From NCBI GenBank assembly GCA_016872055.1, contig VHBH01000001.1, positions 124,001 to 188,000 on the forward strand: 64,000 nucleotides of DNA, in the 5' to 3' direction. Position numbers and translations under genes: made by a program. The stretch comes from Nitrososphaerota archaeon. GTDB taxonomy: Archaea; Thermoproteota; Nitrososphaeria; Nitrososphaerales; Nitrosopumilaceae. The notes under the pieces are model-generated. The model saw nothing but the letters and a program-made list of their open reading frames with translations, did no database searches and had not been told where the DNA came from. Below are positions 19,890-61,551 of the stretch, in pieces. Position 1 is the first letter of the stretch; every line of letters starts with the position of its first letter.

Positions 19890-20768
19890 TTACTGTGCTT
19901 CCATGCCTGCAAACCAATCTGATCTCTCAGTTTGTTTAACAGTATTCGTCGGTGGCTGAGGCAGATTTGCGCTCACTACCTCTTCTCTATTTTCGGCCGG
20001 AGGAGGTGTAGTGTTTGCAAATATTGGCTGAGCCGAATTTGCGTGTTCTGAAGGTTTTTCAGGTGAATAGGAAGGTGCACTTGGAGTCTGCTCGACTGTC
20101 TGTCCGTTGTTTGTCACAAGATATGATACTGCAGATGTCTGGATTTGCGCTTGCTGGTTCACGTCGCTGCGAACACCATCCAAGGATAGATCCGACATTC
20201 TTCTCTGAATGTTTAGGATTTCTGCCTTTTCATGGTCGATGTGTTCCATTATTTCGCCGGTGTGCGTCTTGATGAGATCATATTTTGCTTCAGAGATTTC
20301 GTTGCTCTTGAATTGGACTTTGGCATCAAACAACAATGTCTTTACAGTCTTTAGCTGTGCACCTAGCTCTTCGAGACGTGAGCCTAGCGCTGATGAAATC
20401 TGCTTTTCAGCTTCTTCCAGCGATATCAGTTTGGACTTGTACTTTTCGTGTATGATTTCTGCGTCTTCCTTCATTTCATCGTTTTCAGAGACAATGTCAA
20501 TTAGCGCCTTTAGACGTCTGATTGTCAGTCCCTTTTCTCTGAGGAATCGTTGTGCGTCGAGTCTCCATTTCGGTATATAGATTACGACATCGCCCTGAAC
20601 TACTAGTTGTTCAAATGGGACCTGTGTTAGTCCTTGTAGACCACAGTCAACTCCCACAGTCTGTATGGAGCCATCAATATCGGTTAGAGTACCGATGACT
20701 TTACCCATCTGGGTGCCATACATGTCTTTGACTTGCTTGCCGATAATCTCTACTTCGTCCTTGTTCAT
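19890..20768 (-). CDS. cdvA: Cell division protein CdvA
   Basis: 292 residues. An N-terminal PRC-barrel-like beta domain (about 5-65, QVKDMYGTQMGKVIGTLTDI) is followed by a long coiled coil (about 75-190), then a Pro/Ser-rich linker, and a C-terminal segment RSDWFAGMEAQ that matches the ESCRT-III (CdvB)-recruiting position. CdvA assembles at mid-cell and recruits CdvB in archaea that divide with ESCRT-like machinery. cdvB and cdvC are not in this window. It is divergent from the 92-residue gene across a promoter with inverted repeats. Confidence 0.9.
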   Translation of the reverse strand: MNKDEVEIIGKQVKDMYGTQMGKVIGTLTDIDGSIQTVGVDCGLQGLTQVPFEQLVVQGDVVIYIPKWRLDAQRFLREKGLTIRRLKALIDIVSENDEMKEDAEIIHEKYKSKLISLEEAEKQISSALGSRLEELGAQLKTVKTLLFDAKVQFKSNEISEAKYDLIKTHTGEIMEHIDHEKAEILNIQRRMSDLSLDGVRSDVNQQAQIQTSAVSYLVTNNGQTVEQTPSAPSYSPEKPSEHANSAQPIFANTTPPPAENREEVVSANLPQPPTNTVKQTERSDWFAGMEAQ

Positions 20769-55165: not shown

Positions 55166-55882
55166 ATGGCCCCAAAGTTATTGGTCAAGGAGACCAAGCC
55201 AATTAGCATAGAGGGAGGATATCTCATCGATGGATTTCCATCAGTAGGATTTACCAGCGCAATTGCAAGCGAGTCACTGATGCACGGAAATGATTATGAG
55301 TTGGTCGGATTTGTCGACTCTTACGATTTTCCAACTGTATCAATACTAAAGGACGGAGTTCCTAGCTATGCAACCAGAATCTACGTCAGCCCGTCACTAA
55401 AGGTTGGAGTGTTTTCATCATATCTGACAGTTAGCGAGCCGTATCACAGAACAATTGCAAAAATGATGCTGCTTTGGGCAAAAAAGCACAAGTGTTCTTT
55501 AGTGGTCAGCTCATCGCCTATGAACCTAGCAGATAATGACAAAAAACAGACAATTGCGGCCGGAAGCACCCAAGAGGCGCGAGAGAAAATAAAGCAGGCC
55601 GGAATGATGGTACTGCAAAATGGCACGATTCCCGGAATTCCAGGGGAGCTGCTAAACCAGGGAATGCTGTACGGCCAAAACGTCATTGTTGTTTTGGTGA
55701 ACGTGGATGAGGCAGGTCCAGACTTTGGATCTAGTGCTGACTTGTGCATAGCAATGTCCAAGATTCTGCCTGGAGTGTCATGTGATCTATCCATGATGAG
55801 AAAGCAGGCCGAAGTAGCAGAAAAACAGATCAAGGAAACAGAGAAGGAAACGAGGGCGCTGCGCGGCTCTATGTACGGCTAG
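55166..55882 (+). CDS. PAC2-family proteasome-assembly-chaperone-like protein
   Basis: 238 residues of the PAC2 fold: YLIDGFPSVGFTSAIASESL, HGNDYELVGFVDSYDFPTVS, GTIPGIPGELLNQGMLYGQN and VLVNVDEAGPDFGSSADLC. Eukaryotic PAC2 helps assemble the proteasome alpha ring and archaeal PbaA/PbaB are related. The C-terminus is a charged coiled coil. The stop is adjacent to the LysE start. A functional link with psmB at 25 kb is inferred from family only. Confidence 0.88.
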   Translation: MAPKLLVKETKPISIEGGYLIDGFPSVGFTSAIASESLMHGNDYELVGFVDSYDFPTVSILKDGVPSYATRIYVSPSLKVGVFSSYLTVSEPYHRTIAKMMLLWAKKHKCSLVVSSSPMNLADNDKKQTIAAGSTQEAREKIKQAGMMVLQNGTIPGIPGELLNQGMLYGQNVIVVLVNVDEAGPDFGSSADLCIAMSKILPGVSCDLSMMRKQAEVAEKQIKETEKETRALRGSMYG

Positions 55883-56491
55883 ATGCAAGAATTTTTTGCG
55901 TTTGTTGCTACAGTCATTGTGGTTTCTGCCTCTGGTGTGATGGCGCCAGGACCGCTTTTTGCCTCTACAATCTCAAGCGGCCTGAGACAGAGGGTTGCAG
56001 GATTTAAGATTGCTATAGGTCATACCATAATAGAGCTGCCACTCGTGTTGCTAATTGGCCTTGGGGTCTTGACGGTTGAGAGTTTTCCGCAATTTCGAAT
56101 CATAATAACAATACTTGGCGCGGCAAGCATCTTTGGGTTTGCCGGATTGCAGATAAGATCAGTACTCAGGGGAACAGTCACAAGAGACTCCAAGTATGGG
56201 CCGTTGCTTACCGGGGTTTTGCTTACGGGTCTCAACCCTTTCTTTTTGGTTTGGTGGTTTACTATTGGAGTCAAGCTGATTTTGGATGCCATGGTGATAT
56301 GGTCGTTTTGGGGAATCCTGATGATGTTTGCACTGCACGTCTGGATGGACTATGCATGGTTGACGTTTGTCTCGGCATCATCAGCAAAGAGTGCAAAATT
56401 CCTTTCTGGAAAATCTTACAAAATATTCATACTTGGGATCAATGCTTTTCTGGTTTACTTTGGAGTAACTTTTCTACTGGATGTTCTCTAG
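55883..56491 (+). CDS. LysE-family amino-acid/metabolite exporter
   Basis: 202 residues with six predicted membrane helices. The N-terminal helix has SGVMAPGPLFASTISSGLRQ, a LysE/RhtB-type reading, and TGVLLTGLNPFFLVWWFTIG in helix 4. The family exports amino acids or related solutes. ATG directly follows the PAC2 stop, so both are in one transcript. The last 4 bases overlap the convergent membrane gene. Confidence 0.85.
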   Translation: MQEFFAFVATVIVVSASGVMAPGPLFASTISSGLRQRVAGFKIAIGHTIIELPLVLLIGLGVLTVESFPQFRIIITILGAASIFGFAGLQIRSVLRGTVTRDSKYGPLLTGVLLTGLNPFFLVWWFTIGVKLILDAMVIWSFWGILMMFALHVWMDYAWLTFVSASSAKSAKFLSGKSYKIFILGINAFLVYFGVTFLLDVL

Positions 56492-57419: not shown

Positions 57420-58508
57420 ATGCGTGTGATATTTCACATTGACTTTGATTATTTTTTTGCCCAGTGTGAAGAGATTAGAAACCAGACACTCAAGACCAAG
57501 CCGGTCTGTGTTTGTATTTTCTCAGACAGGGGTGGGGATAGCGGTGCAATTGCCACTGCCAACTATATTGCAAGAAAATATGGTGTAAAGTCCGGTATTC
57601 CAATCAAGTTTGCAAAGGCAAGGCTAAGGGAGATTCCAGAATCTGTATTTTTGCCAGCGGACTTTCCGTATTATTCCGATATTTCGCAGAAGGCAATGGA
57701 GATAATGAAGTCATATGCTGATGTATTCGAGTATGTCGGGCGCGACGAGGCATACTTGGATGTCACAAAAAAATCAGAGGGCAGCTTTACCATTGCCACG
57801 CACTTAGCCCAACAGTTAAAAAACCAAATCCGTGCCGAACTAAAAATGACTTGCACTGTTGGGATTTCTGCTAACAAGCTAGTATCAAAGATTGCATCGG
57901 GTTTTAGAAAGCCTGACGGACTTACAGTTGTCGAGCCGGAAAAGACAGGATCGTTTTTGGCACATCTGAATGTAGGTGATATCCCTGGAATAGGCAAGGT
58001 TACTGGAGAAAAATTCGCAGAATTAGACATCAAGACAATATCGGATCTGGTAAGGCTTGATGTGTTTACCCTAAACAATATGTTTGGCAAAAAAATTGCT
58101 TCATACATCTACAATGCCGCCCGCGGAATTGATGATGATATCGTGTCAGAGCGGGCGCCAGCAGTCCAATATTCCAGAATCATAACGCTAAAGCAGGATT
58201 CAAAGGACTTATCCTTTCTTTTAGGTGCACTGGATGAGATTTGCGCAGATCTGCACGAAACAATACTAAAACACAAAAAAACATTCAAGTCCGTTGGAAT
58301 CCAGTTTGTCCAGTCTGATTTATCCAATAAGACAAAATCAAAAATGCTCAAAAACCCAACATCAAGTCTGGATGAGCTCAAAAAGACTGCTGTTATTTTA
58401 CTCCAAGAAGCCCTAGCTGATCAGGACCAAAGTGTGCGAAGGCTCGGAATTAGAATATCGGAATTGTCCGATGTTACTGGTCAAAGATCGATTGAGAATT
58501 TCTTCTAA
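57420..58508 (+). CDS. dinB: DNA polymerase IV (Y-family, DinB)
   Basis: 362 residues from ATG 57420 (MRVIFHIDFDYFFAQ); longer in-frame readings run over the opposite 83-residue gene and are not used. Palm motifs VIFHIDFDYFFAQCEE and EYVGRDEAYLDVT carry the metal ligands, TVGISANKLVSKIASGFRKP the finger/palm region, and IPGIGKVTGEKFAEL the HhH. It bypasses damaged bases. The last residues GQRSIENFF match a PCNA-interacting peptide. Convergent overlap of 4 nt with the next gene. Confidence 0.95.
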   Translation: MRVIFHIDFDYFFAQCEEIRNQTLKTKPVCVCIFSDRGGDSGAIATANYIARKYGVKSGIPIKFAKARLREIPESVFLPADFPYYSDISQKAMEIMKSYADVFEYVGRDEAYLDVTKKSEGSFTIATHLAQQLKNQIRAELKMTCTVGISANKLVSKIASGFRKPDGLTVVEPEKTGSFLAHLNVGDIPGIGKVTGEKFAELDIKTISDLVRLDVFTLNNMFGKKIASYIYNAARGIDDDIVSERAPAVQYSRIITLKQDSKDLSFLLGALDEICADLHETILKHKKTFKSVGIQFVQSDLSNKTKSKMLKNPTSSLDELKKTAVILLQEALADQDQSVRRLGIRISELSDVTGQRSIENFF

Positions 58509-59422
58509 GCTGCCATTTTTTTGATGCGCTTGGTCTCTATTGCAGTTACTGCAAACAAATACGCAAAGAGCCATGGGAGAAACATAATCTCTCCTGCGAT
58601 TCCGTGAAATTCCTCAAATTCGACTGGGTTTGTAGAAACCTTGAGGGCAAATAGTGATAACGAAAATATTCTAATCATGTTGACAAAGATTGTTCCTGCA
58701 ATTCCTATTGCAAAGTACATCGCCTTTCGCTTTGGTGCAATATTCATCTTTAGTAAAAATGCCATCATAACCAAGGAAAAGATAATAACCGAATGTACAC
58801 CCGCAGACGGCCAAAATACCTGCAGTGCCATGGAGCCATGCTCGCCTTTGAGAAACATCAGATTGTTACGCGCAATTGCAGTTCCTAGATCAAAGAACTT
58901 GATTATCTCCACGTTTGCCTTGACCAAATATGGCACGATGTATTGTAACGGTCCGAGTGTATCGTACGGGAAAAACGCATCCAGTGAAAGAATAATTGCG
59001 CTACCACATAGAAAAATCGGGCCTGCCGGCGCAATTCTAATCCATCTTTTTCCAAACAATATGGTCACAGCGGCAATTACAAACGCTGCCATTATCACAA
59101 AGTCCCAAAGCCATGTCCAGGAATGAATCAGACTTACGTTATAGTATTGGGCACTATCCTGTACATATTGCCTGAGGCCATGATCAAGGGCTATCAAATA
59201 CGCAAAGACTGCAGCTGCAAATGGAATTGTTGCTATGACTCGTTTTTGGGAAACTATGGTCTTGATTCCGAGTAGCTCTGCCACAATGAATGCCATTGCA
59301 AAGAGCCAGCCACCCCTACCTTGGTTCCAGCTTAGTGAAAACGAGTCAGGTTGGTAAGCCAGAGCAAAGAGAACTGGGCTGATTATGATAATAATAGCAA
59401 ATGTCAGAGATTTGTTTTGCAA
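58505..59422 (-). CDS. Archaeosortase/exosortase-family membrane protein (Ser in place of Cys)
   Basis: 305 residues, about eight membrane helices. Exosortase-type active-site stretches appear in order: FWPSAGVHSVIIFSLV, NMIRIFSLSLFAL (Arg) and FHGIAGEIMFLP (His). The usual active Cys is Ser here. In Thaumarchaeota these proteins are thought to process PEFG-CTERM exported proteins, and I recall Ser variants being noted, though I cannot verify. No PEFG substrate gene is in this window. It follows dinB convergently. Confidence 0.82.
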   Translation of the reverse strand: MQNKSLTFAIIIIISPVLFALAYQPDSFSLSWNQGRGGWLFAMAFIVAELLGIKTIVSQKRVIATIPFAAAVFAYLIALDHGLRQYVQDSAQYYNVSLIHSWTWLWDFVIMAAFVIAAVTILFGKRWIRIAPAGPIFLCGSAIILSLDAFFPYDTLGPLQYIVPYLVKANVEIIKFFDLGTAIARNNLMFLKGEHGSMALQVFWPSAGVHSVIIFSLVMMAFLLKMNIAPKRKAMYFAIGIAGTIFVNMIRIFSLSLFALKVSTNPVEFEEFHGIAGEIMFLPWLFAYLFAVTAIETKRIKKMAA

Positions 59423-59456: not shown

Positions 59457-60002
59457 TTATTTCTTCTTTATAGTAAGTGTCTTTTGGATCTCGCTCATCG
59501 AGCTGATGAATTTCTGCTTTGCCTCGTATTCGTTTGAGACCTTGACTATGACCTCAGTTGATGACAACAATACATCCTTGATAACTAATGGTGCAGACAA
59601 TCCAAGTAATTCCGATAGAAAATCGAATAGATTATGGAATTTGGTTTGGTTCTTGTACTGATACATGACTCGCCCGTCCTTGAACATGGGTTTTGGATCA
59701 AGTGGAATTACCAGCTCTGGGGACGTCATGTCGTTGATAAATTTTGCAGTGTCGGTTTTGATGGATGTAGATAGTTCTTCTTTTTTTGTCTCCAAGTTTG
59801 ATTTGGTCTTTTCTAGATTTGCCTGCTGGTCGTCATATTCTGTTCCAATCATTTTTGCAAACGCAGATTCTGTTGGCTTCTTGAGTGGGATTTCATGGAG
59901 ATTCATGTTTATTATTTTGAGTTCGTCTTCTATTTGCACAAGGTATTTCCTATTTGCTTTGATCTGACCGGCAAGTTCCTCAAGATAGATAAAATCAGAC
60001 AT
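59457..60002 (-). CDS. Coiled-coil protein paired with the tubulin-like GTPase
   Basis: 181 residues. A long charged coiled coil runs from about 5 to 95 (YLEELAGQIKANRKYLVQIE, then QQANLEKTKSNLETKKEELS), followed by a small globular end (VMYQYKNQTKFHNLFDFLSE, PLVIKDVLLSSTEVIVKVSN). The ATG at 60002 lies 7 nt after the GTPase stop on the same strand, so it is cotranscribed and probably a partner such as a filament adaptor or nucleator. I recognise no family. Confidence 0.72.
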   Translation of the reverse strand: MSDFIYLEELAGQIKANRKYLVQIEDELKIINMNLHEIPLKKPTESAFAKMIGTEYDDQQANLEKTKSNLETKKEELSTSIKTDTAKFINDMTSPELVIPLDPKPMFKDGRVMYQYKNQTKFHNLFDFLSELLGLSAPLVIKDVLLSSTEVIVKVSNEYEAKQKFISSMSEIQKTLTIKKK

Positions 60003-60009
60003 TATACCC

Positions 60010-61404
60010 TCACTGGCTAAACTGGTGAACTACGTCCATCAGAGATTGTTTGAAATCTTCAGTGGTCAGGCCCCATCTTCCGTATTCATCCTTGTATGCA
60101 TCCCAGGCTTCTTCTGCCTCGCGGGCAATCTCTAGCACCTTTGGCCCTATTGCCTTTGTATTGACAAGAATTGTGATGTTTGCCTGTTCTTTATCCATGA
60201 TTGGAATTTTGATAAATATCATTCTGGAATCCTCAATGTTGAATCTCTCCTTGATGAGTCTCTTGAGCAATTCGCGCTCTTTGATGTCAAATTCGCCTTT
60301 TACTTTAACTAGTGCACAGCAAGAGTCCTTTGCTCCGCCATAATTGCGAATGTCAGTCTCATCAATATCGAATAGAATCGCATCCTGCTTTTTGTTTAGA
60401 TTCTCAATGATACTATCCATTGTGTTGTGCTTGTTACCAGTAATGGTGTTGAGGTTCCACTGGTCTTCATCAGGCAATACAGGTATGACCCATGGAATTG
60501 CAAATTTGGGTCTCTTTGTTGCAAGCCAGGTTCTATAATTTGACATGTCCCATTCTGTTTCTCTGGCAAATGAAGAAATGAACATGGAGATTGCGTTTGC
60601 AGCAATCAGATTCATACCCTTGTAGTCTTTCCATCCTACTTCGTGTTCCTTCGGCAGATCATCTATTATAGATGGAATCTTGTCCACTCGTTTTTCATAC
60701 TTATGGGCAACTTCGCGCAGTCGTTTGTTTGAAAATAGTATTGAACAGTCAGAATACTTGATTTGGTATTCCAGATTCATTACTATATTGATTGCAGCTG
60801 CTTCCAATATGACTGGGTCCCAGCCAAATTCTGGCAACAGCCCTAGTGTTGCAATTGTTGCGTGTTCCTTGGTGTTGCTTCTAATAAATTCGATAAACGA
60901 GCAAGCAAAAGAGCTTCCAGTACCGCCACCCATTGCAAACGGAACAGTATAGCCTCGGACTTGTTCTGGCGATAATGCTGATAATTGTTTTCCAAAGTCC
61001 CATTTTTGGGTGACTTCGTTTTTGAATCTAGAGCGTCCTTCTGCCCAGTTTCTTGCGGCACCTCCAGCACCATGTATCACATGCTTGTCACGCAACGCAA
61101 AAAGGTCAGGATATGACTGTAAAATGAGATTTGCAGCCCTTGGGTCCAAGTCTACTAGTAATGCTCTTGGAATTAGCGGTGTTTCTCCACCAGTATATGC
61201 GCCTGGGAATCGAAGGATTGTGCTTCCATATCTTTTTAGGATTCTGGACTCGTCCTTTGTGTCCTTGAGAACAGGCTTTAGTGGATCGGCGCCAACATCA
61301 AGCAGTAATCTACGGTAGGATTCTGCTCCAAGACCAATTCCACAGTGACCAAAGCAGGTCATCAGAACTGGCGCTGGTGGTAGTGGGGCGCTTGCTTGTA
61401 CCAT
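60010..61404 (-). CDS. Tubulin-like GTPase (tubulin/FtsZ superfamily)
   Basis: 464 residues. The four nucleotide loops follow the tubulin rather than the FtsZ pattern: T1 MTCFGHCGIGLGAESYRRLL, T2 LLVDLDPRAANLIL, T3 HGAGGAARNWAEGRSRF, and T4 FAMGGGTGSSFACSFIEF. The sixth-helix equivalent NLEYQIKYSDCSILFSNKRL follows. The T7 synergy loop region ETEWDMSNYRTWLA keeps one Asp and has Asn where FtsZ has the second. It could polymerise. Divergent thaumarchaeal FtsZ-like and artubulin proteins are known. It heads a pair with a coiled-coil gene. Confidence 0.85.
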   Translation of the reverse strand: MVQASAPLPPAPVLMTCFGHCGIGLGAESYRRLLLDVGADPLKPVLKDTKDESRILKRYGSTILRFPGAYTGGETPLIPRALLVDLDPRAANLILQSYPDLFALRDKHVIHGAGGAARNWAEGRSRFKNEVTQKWDFGKQLSALSPEQVRGYTVPFAMGGGTGSSFACSFIEFIRSNTKEHATIATLGLLPEFGWDPVILEAAAINIVMNLEYQIKYSDCSILFSNKRLREVAHKYEKRVDKIPSIIDDLPKEHEVGWKDYKGMNLIAANAISMFISSFARETEWDMSNYRTWLATKRPKFAIPWVIPVLPDEDQWNLNTITGNKHNTMDSIIENLNKKQDAILFDIDETDIRNYGGAKDSCCALVKVKGEFDIKERELLKRLIKERFNIEDSRMIFIKIPIMDKEQANITILVNTKAIGPKVLEIAREAEEAWDAYKDEYGRWGLTTEDFKQSLMDVVHQFSQ

Positions 61405-61405
61405 G

Positions 61406-61501
61406 TTATTTGTTTGCCCCTTGGAGTTTAACTTGGTGTACTAAACAAAATGAAGTGATTGCTTGATCGTTGTAGACATGTTTCATGAATGGAATTACCA
61501 T
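61406..61501 (-). CDS. Possible 31-codon leader frame before the tubulin-like gene
   Basis: An open frame from ATG 61501 (MVIPFMKHVYNDQAITSFCL, VHQVKLQGANK) ends in TAA one base before the tubulin-like ATG. Composition looks natural, but at this length chance is likely. It could couple translation of the GTPase to its own. Confidence 0.25.
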   Translation of the reverse strand: MVIPFMKHVYNDQAITSFCLVHQVKLQGANK

Positions 61502-61551
61502 AAATGAATTTAATCATTAAGTATGAATTATCCGTAGTTATAATAGTAAAA

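Follow-up and report, generated by a model that had tools for sequence, protein, structure and literature searches.

Gene content of the locus

The window, by which we mean the whole stretch of 64,000 nucleotides that was analysed, comes from a genome of 1.24 Mb; named Nitrosotenuis loci are among its close relatives. It holds a gene for a GTPase of the tubulin superfamily (artubulin) and, directly behind it, a smaller gene that we call the partner. The following features are used throughout:

61405..61551, minus strand: upstream region of artubulin, 147 nt, with the conserved block TGTCTACAACGATCAAG found in 8 Nitrosotenuis-type loci
60010..61404, minus strand: artubulin gene (464 aa), PF00091 at 54.7 bits, tubulin-type T1-T4 loops
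60523..60564, minus strand: T7-loop segment RETEWDMSNYRTWL, artubulin residues 281-294, invariant in 18/18 aligned relatives
60003..60009, no strand given: 7-nt gap between artubulin and partner, read from the sequence
59457..60002, minus strand: partner gene (181 aa), modelled by AlphaFold2 as a hairpin, an alpha/beta domain and a C-terminal helix
59727..59993, minus strand: predicted helical hairpin of the partner, residues 4-92, with a conserved tip at about residues 39-59
19893-20768, minus strand: CdvA, PF18822 at 88.6 bits

The positions of both open reading frames and their 7-nt spacing are as given in the original prediction, and the CdvA gene that it placed in the same window is indeed there. 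Elsewhere in the genome we found a weak ESCRT-III match. The proteins encoded by both frames of the pair are conserved in many species, which excludes chance ORFs. The stop region of the artubulin gene reads GTGAGGG and stands before the ATG of the partner, where it is a possible weak ribosome-binding site.

Upstream the pair is bordered by an NreA-type gene, and no Snf7 gene was seen beside it in the window. Downstream, 34 nt after the partner and on the same strand, follows a thaumarchaeosortase gene (58505-59422); each of the six Nitrosotenuis-type loci compared has a 305-aa gene here. The block TGTCTACAACGATCAAG is nearly identical in the window and in loci L063-L066 and L069-L071, the remainder of the upstream region having diverged, and it is possibly a promoter or a regulator site. 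PAC2 and LysE-like genes are found close to the pair in the window (55166-56488) and again in the distant locus L116 (9954-11427). The PAC2 gene was confirmed with Pfam and the LysE-like gene was assigned by eye.

Identity of the GTPase

The GTPase matched PF00091 with 54.7 bits against a cut-off of 33. Its loops read GHCGIGLGAE (T1), PRALLVDLDP (T3 region), GGGTGSS (T4) and EWDMSN (T7 region), and NWAEG corresponds to the NNxA[RK]G region of tubulins. In an alignment of 18 relatives most of these motifs are invariant, and all of the tubulin-type T1-T4 motifs named in the original prediction are present. The FtsZ motifs GGGTGTG and NxDxxD are absent, their places being taken by GGGTGSS and EWDMSN.

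We then compared a profile of the 18 relatives with the PDB and obtained 170 matches. Asgard, gamma- and alpha-tubulins are among the best 60 of these, with the Asgard protein AtubB at the top (74.7 bits), and none of these 60 entries is named FtsZ or CetZ. At E ≤ 0.001 the profile matched nothing in 16 related genomes although most of them hold FtsZ-type proteins, and when 13 FtsZ-type proteins were searched directly none was found. An NCBIfam search of the GTPase gave no FtsZ match either. The profile comparison, which had been proposed as a check, thus does not favour FtsZ and bears out the preference for tubulin.

The GTPase shares 76-80% identity with relatives in Nitrosarchaeum and Nitrosotalea (76-79% with the Nitrosarchaeum-type loci). 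In three of the latter (L109, L203 and L204) the neighbours are a Snf7-like gene, a dCMP deaminase, DNA polymerase B and triosephosphate isomerase, which is the Snf7/deaminase/polymerase/TIM neighbourhood published for the Nitrosarchaeum artubulin (Yutin and Koonin 2012, PMC3349469). Published artubulins of Nitrosotenuis uzonensis and Nitrosarchaeum are about 79% identical (PMC3835317), so that in the level of identity between genera, as well as in the structure of the Nitrosarchaeum locus with its upstream Snf7, the present family is the published one.

It is very improbable that the GTPase is instead a divergent FtsZ or CetZ and no tubulin. The GTPase domain is common to the whole superfamily and D286 of the T7 loop is retained, as such a reading would have it; however, the PDB matches, the failure of the profile to find FtsZ-type proteins, the NCBIfam result and the synteny with published artubulin loci all contradict it, and we rejected an FtsZ identity. 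By sequence comparison the GTPase is an artubulin, closer to eukaryotic-type tubulins than to FtsZ. The tubulin half of the pair is therefore already known: the original reading of the GTPase as tubulin rather than FtsZ was right, but the protein is not new. Published trees have left the placement of artubulins relative to tubulins, CetZ and FtsZ unsettled (PMC13394414).

Active site and the FtsZ-like protein of the genome

The G-box of artubulin (GGGTGSS) is intact. The catalytic acid of the T7 loop is D212 in FtsZ and E254 in alpha-tubulin. We aligned artubulin manually with tubulin and FtsZ and found that its T7 loop keeps the Asp, while Asn replaces the catalytic acid. Because of this Asn, GTP hydrolysis may be slow or may need something else, and the dynamics of an artubulin polymer may be weak or absent.

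The genome also encodes an FtsZ-like protein, whose gene lies outside the window. Its G-box reads AGKSGCA instead of GGGTGxG, and NxDxxD is lacking. The same has been published for the FtsZ of N. maritimus, a protein that failed to polymerise in yeast (PMC3684127). As the FtsZ of this genome is without the GTP-binding and T7 motifs, no tubulin-superfamily protein here other than artubulin has an intact G-box.

Constancy of the pair

Across 400 genomes of the class we found 89 artubulin genes in 86 genomes, belonging to families f1, f4, f5 and f9. Four of the 89 were left out of the count, namely one locus at the end of a contig and three incomplete genes from fragmented assemblies. In all 85 testable loci, spread over the four families, the partner lies directly downstream on the same strand, with a gap of 5-24 nt including the stop codon. 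The constant pairing that the neighbourhood comparison was meant to check is therefore found throughout. Named loci are paired as well, including L116, where identity has fallen to 53% for artubulin and 31% for the partner. The genes flanking the pair vary between genera, so that the pair alone is constant.

The two genes are also duplicated and lost together. In a family-level sample of 151 genomes, 55 carry artubulin, and the same 55 carry the partner. Two further genomes hold only a short, partial or decayed partner fragment and no artubulin (L172 in G067 and L173 in G081); these fragments are possibly a trace of joint loss. Within at least five genera (g1, g4, g9, g12 and g15) presence and absence of the two genes switch jointly, for which shared ancestry alone is an insufficient explanation. 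Two genomes carry two artubulins and two partners each, namely G206 (L209, L210) and G125 (L105, L106), the duplication in G125 being unsure because the assembly is 5% contaminated.

Most genomes of genus g12, several members of which are titled Nitrosopumilus, lack both genes, and the pair is frequent in genera titled Nitrosotenuis, Nitrosotalea and Nitrosarchaeum. This uneven distribution is possibly a habitat pattern. We also considered an in-frame fusion of the two genes, suggested by open frames of about 650 aa, and rejected it since a stop codon stands between them in the in-frame loci checked.

The partner protein

The AlphaFold2 model of the partner, built with 24 relatives, reached a pLDDT of 92. 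It consists of a hairpin of two helices (residues 4-51 and 60-92), a small alpha/beta domain and a C-terminal helix (residues 158-180). The residues of the hairpin tip rank among the most conserved of the protein. Heptad periodicity was compared with shuffled sequences (p = 0.06 for helix 1 and 0.29 for helix 2) and taken alone is only suggestive. The partner had been described as a coiled-coil protein; a helical hairpin is predicted, but about half of the protein is globular and it is not a plain coiled coil.

A Foldseek search of the PDB with this model gave nothing below E 0.001. For the partner in the window no Pfam family, SepF, ZapA and ZapB included, scored over its cut-off and no NCBIfam entry matched. 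Profile searches of the PDB and Pfam returned only scattered coiled-coil noise for the partner, and the weak Pfam hits differed inconsistently among 24 members. In the open literature we found no description of the partner, in line with the view that a dedicated coiled-coil partner had not been known; a 'conserved hypothetical protein' in a figure legend of 2012 may be an earlier, unnamed mention. The GTPase is known and the partner is the new part of the locus.

Homologues of the partner also exist without artubulin. Among 300 genomes sampled from the phylum, all partner matches fell into families of the same order. Family f2, which we take to be probably Nitrosocaldaceae, has full-length homologues that adjoin radical SAM and archaellin genes and no artubulin. 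Family f3, probably Nitrososphaeraceae, has shorter homologues (about 130 residues) that retain the N-terminal motif and the globular domain but lack the hairpin, about residues 12-64; they often stand beside EMG1/UbiA/S19e. We looked for a tubulin gene beside the f2 and f3 homologues and found none. Residues P39, P138 and G134, conserved in artubulin-linked forms, are absent or variable in f2. In the partner tree f2 groups with the linked f4 and f9 forms (support 96/93, to be read with a warning of long branches). A loss of artubulin in f2 followed by drift of the partner fits these observations and is not proven by them. The word 'dedicated' in the original prediction thus holds in one direction: in every testable locus the partner stands behind artubulin, but it persists without artubulin in f2 and f3, and part of its function may be independent.

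Proposed function

What the data show is the identity of both genes, their linkage, their joint loss and duplication, and the fold predicted for the partner. An association of the two proteins is strongly inferred, and physical binding, polymerisation and a cellular role are putative. We consider it likely that the genes form a two-gene cytoskeletal module of the Nitrososphaeria in which the partner is an accessory protein that binds artubulin. Both proteins would probably be made together from one short operon. Artubulin most likely binds GTP and assembles into polymers of the protofilament type, to which the partner would bind as an adaptor or cross-linker, by analogy with SepF, ZapA/ZapB and MAPs in the case of FtsZ and tubulin. 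The hairpin could be a spacer or arm, with the alpha/beta domain and the basic C-terminal helix as a putative second binding surface. As division in this group is Cdv-driven, a role in shape, envelope or DNA positioning is more likely than one in constriction.

Tentatively, the module may be a two-component polymer, in which a GTP-binding tubulin whose T7 loop is altered needs a hairpin protein of new fold for its assembly or turnover; it would then be a MAP-like module ancestral to the Nitrososphaerales and repeatedly lost. We also modelled the two proteins as one chain, using an in-frame read-through locus. This model was poor (pLDDT 63, pTM 0.33) and gave no usable interface. In Foldseek its top 50 matches were all alpha/beta tubulins, over the whole chain and with a TM of about 0.3.

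A two-gene operon may also mean no more than shared regulation. The partner might have an ancestral job independent of artubulin, perhaps together with ESCRT-III/Cdv, membrane or ribosome-biogenesis factors, and be co-transcribed with it only in some lineages. The full-length f2 homologues next to radical SAM and archaellin genes and the short f3 homologues, often next to EMG1/UbiA/S19e, speak for such a history. We nevertheless regard it as unlikely, since wherever artubulin is present the partner follows directly (85/85) and since both genes vanish together inside the Nitrosopumilaceae. The changes at P39, P138 and G134 in f2 are those expected once a binding partner is lost, and the tree, long branches permitting, places f2 with the linked forms. 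About equally doubtful is the proposal of Yutin and Koonin that artubulin and ESCRT-III cooperate in division, in which case the partner would form a bridge to Cdv proteins. The Snf7-like gene directly upstream of artubulin in Nitrosarchaeum, seen here and in PMC3349469, speaks for it. Against it, Snf7 adjoins the pair only in the listed Nitrosarchaeum loci, and no Snf7 gene was seen beside the pair in the window or in the other listed neighbourhoods. An adjacent Snf7 is not a defining feature of artubulins and is likewise missing in Nitrosotenuis uzonensis (PMC3835317). Moreover, many Nitrosopumilaceae have no artubulin and must divide without it. The artubulin-binding accessory protein remains the reading that we prefer.

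The idea that artubulins may be related to the ancestor of eukaryotic tubulin has been under discussion since 2012. The literature searched gave no function for them, and the PDB search gave no solved artubulin structure. The gene occurs in several families of the Nitrososphaeria, and in this Cdv-type genome its product alone among tubulin-superfamily proteins has an intact G-box. A constant partner gene offers a direct experimental entry to its function, and co-expression with the partner may be what is needed for a polymer to become visible.

Comparison with related systems

The reports on artubulin (PMC3349469, PMC3835317) do not describe a conserved downstream partner, and the distribution found here (f1, f4, f5 and f9) is wider. 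Among solved structures the best matches of the artubulin profile are Asgard tubulins of the AtubA/AtubB kind, at 74.7 (AtubB) and 67.1 bits (PMC13394414). These proteins are distant, and they form a tandem of two tubulins, whereas artubulin stands in tandem with a non-tubulin. The FtsZ-SepF and ZapA-ZapB pairs are similar in concept: a small helical or adaptor protein accompanies a GTPase of the tubulin superfamily. However, the partner has no sequence similarity to SepF, ZapA or ZapB (no Pfam match), and the SepF gene of this genome is located elsewhere, away from the pair. Coiled-coil neighbours of Halo.Tub and Asg.Tub genes have been mentioned in general terms and described as unrelated (PMC9871819). 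These are likewise unnamed coiled-coil genes near archaeal tubulin-like genes, but for artubulin that paper names Snf7 alone, and the partner described here is one orthologous family at a fixed position. Just upstream of artubulin, Nitrosotalea-type genomes encode a TPR protein and a protein of 99 aa (L087, 6731-7838, and relatives); the tubulins of Prosthecobacter, too, adjoin a TPR (kinesin-light-chain-like) neighbour (PMC3349469).
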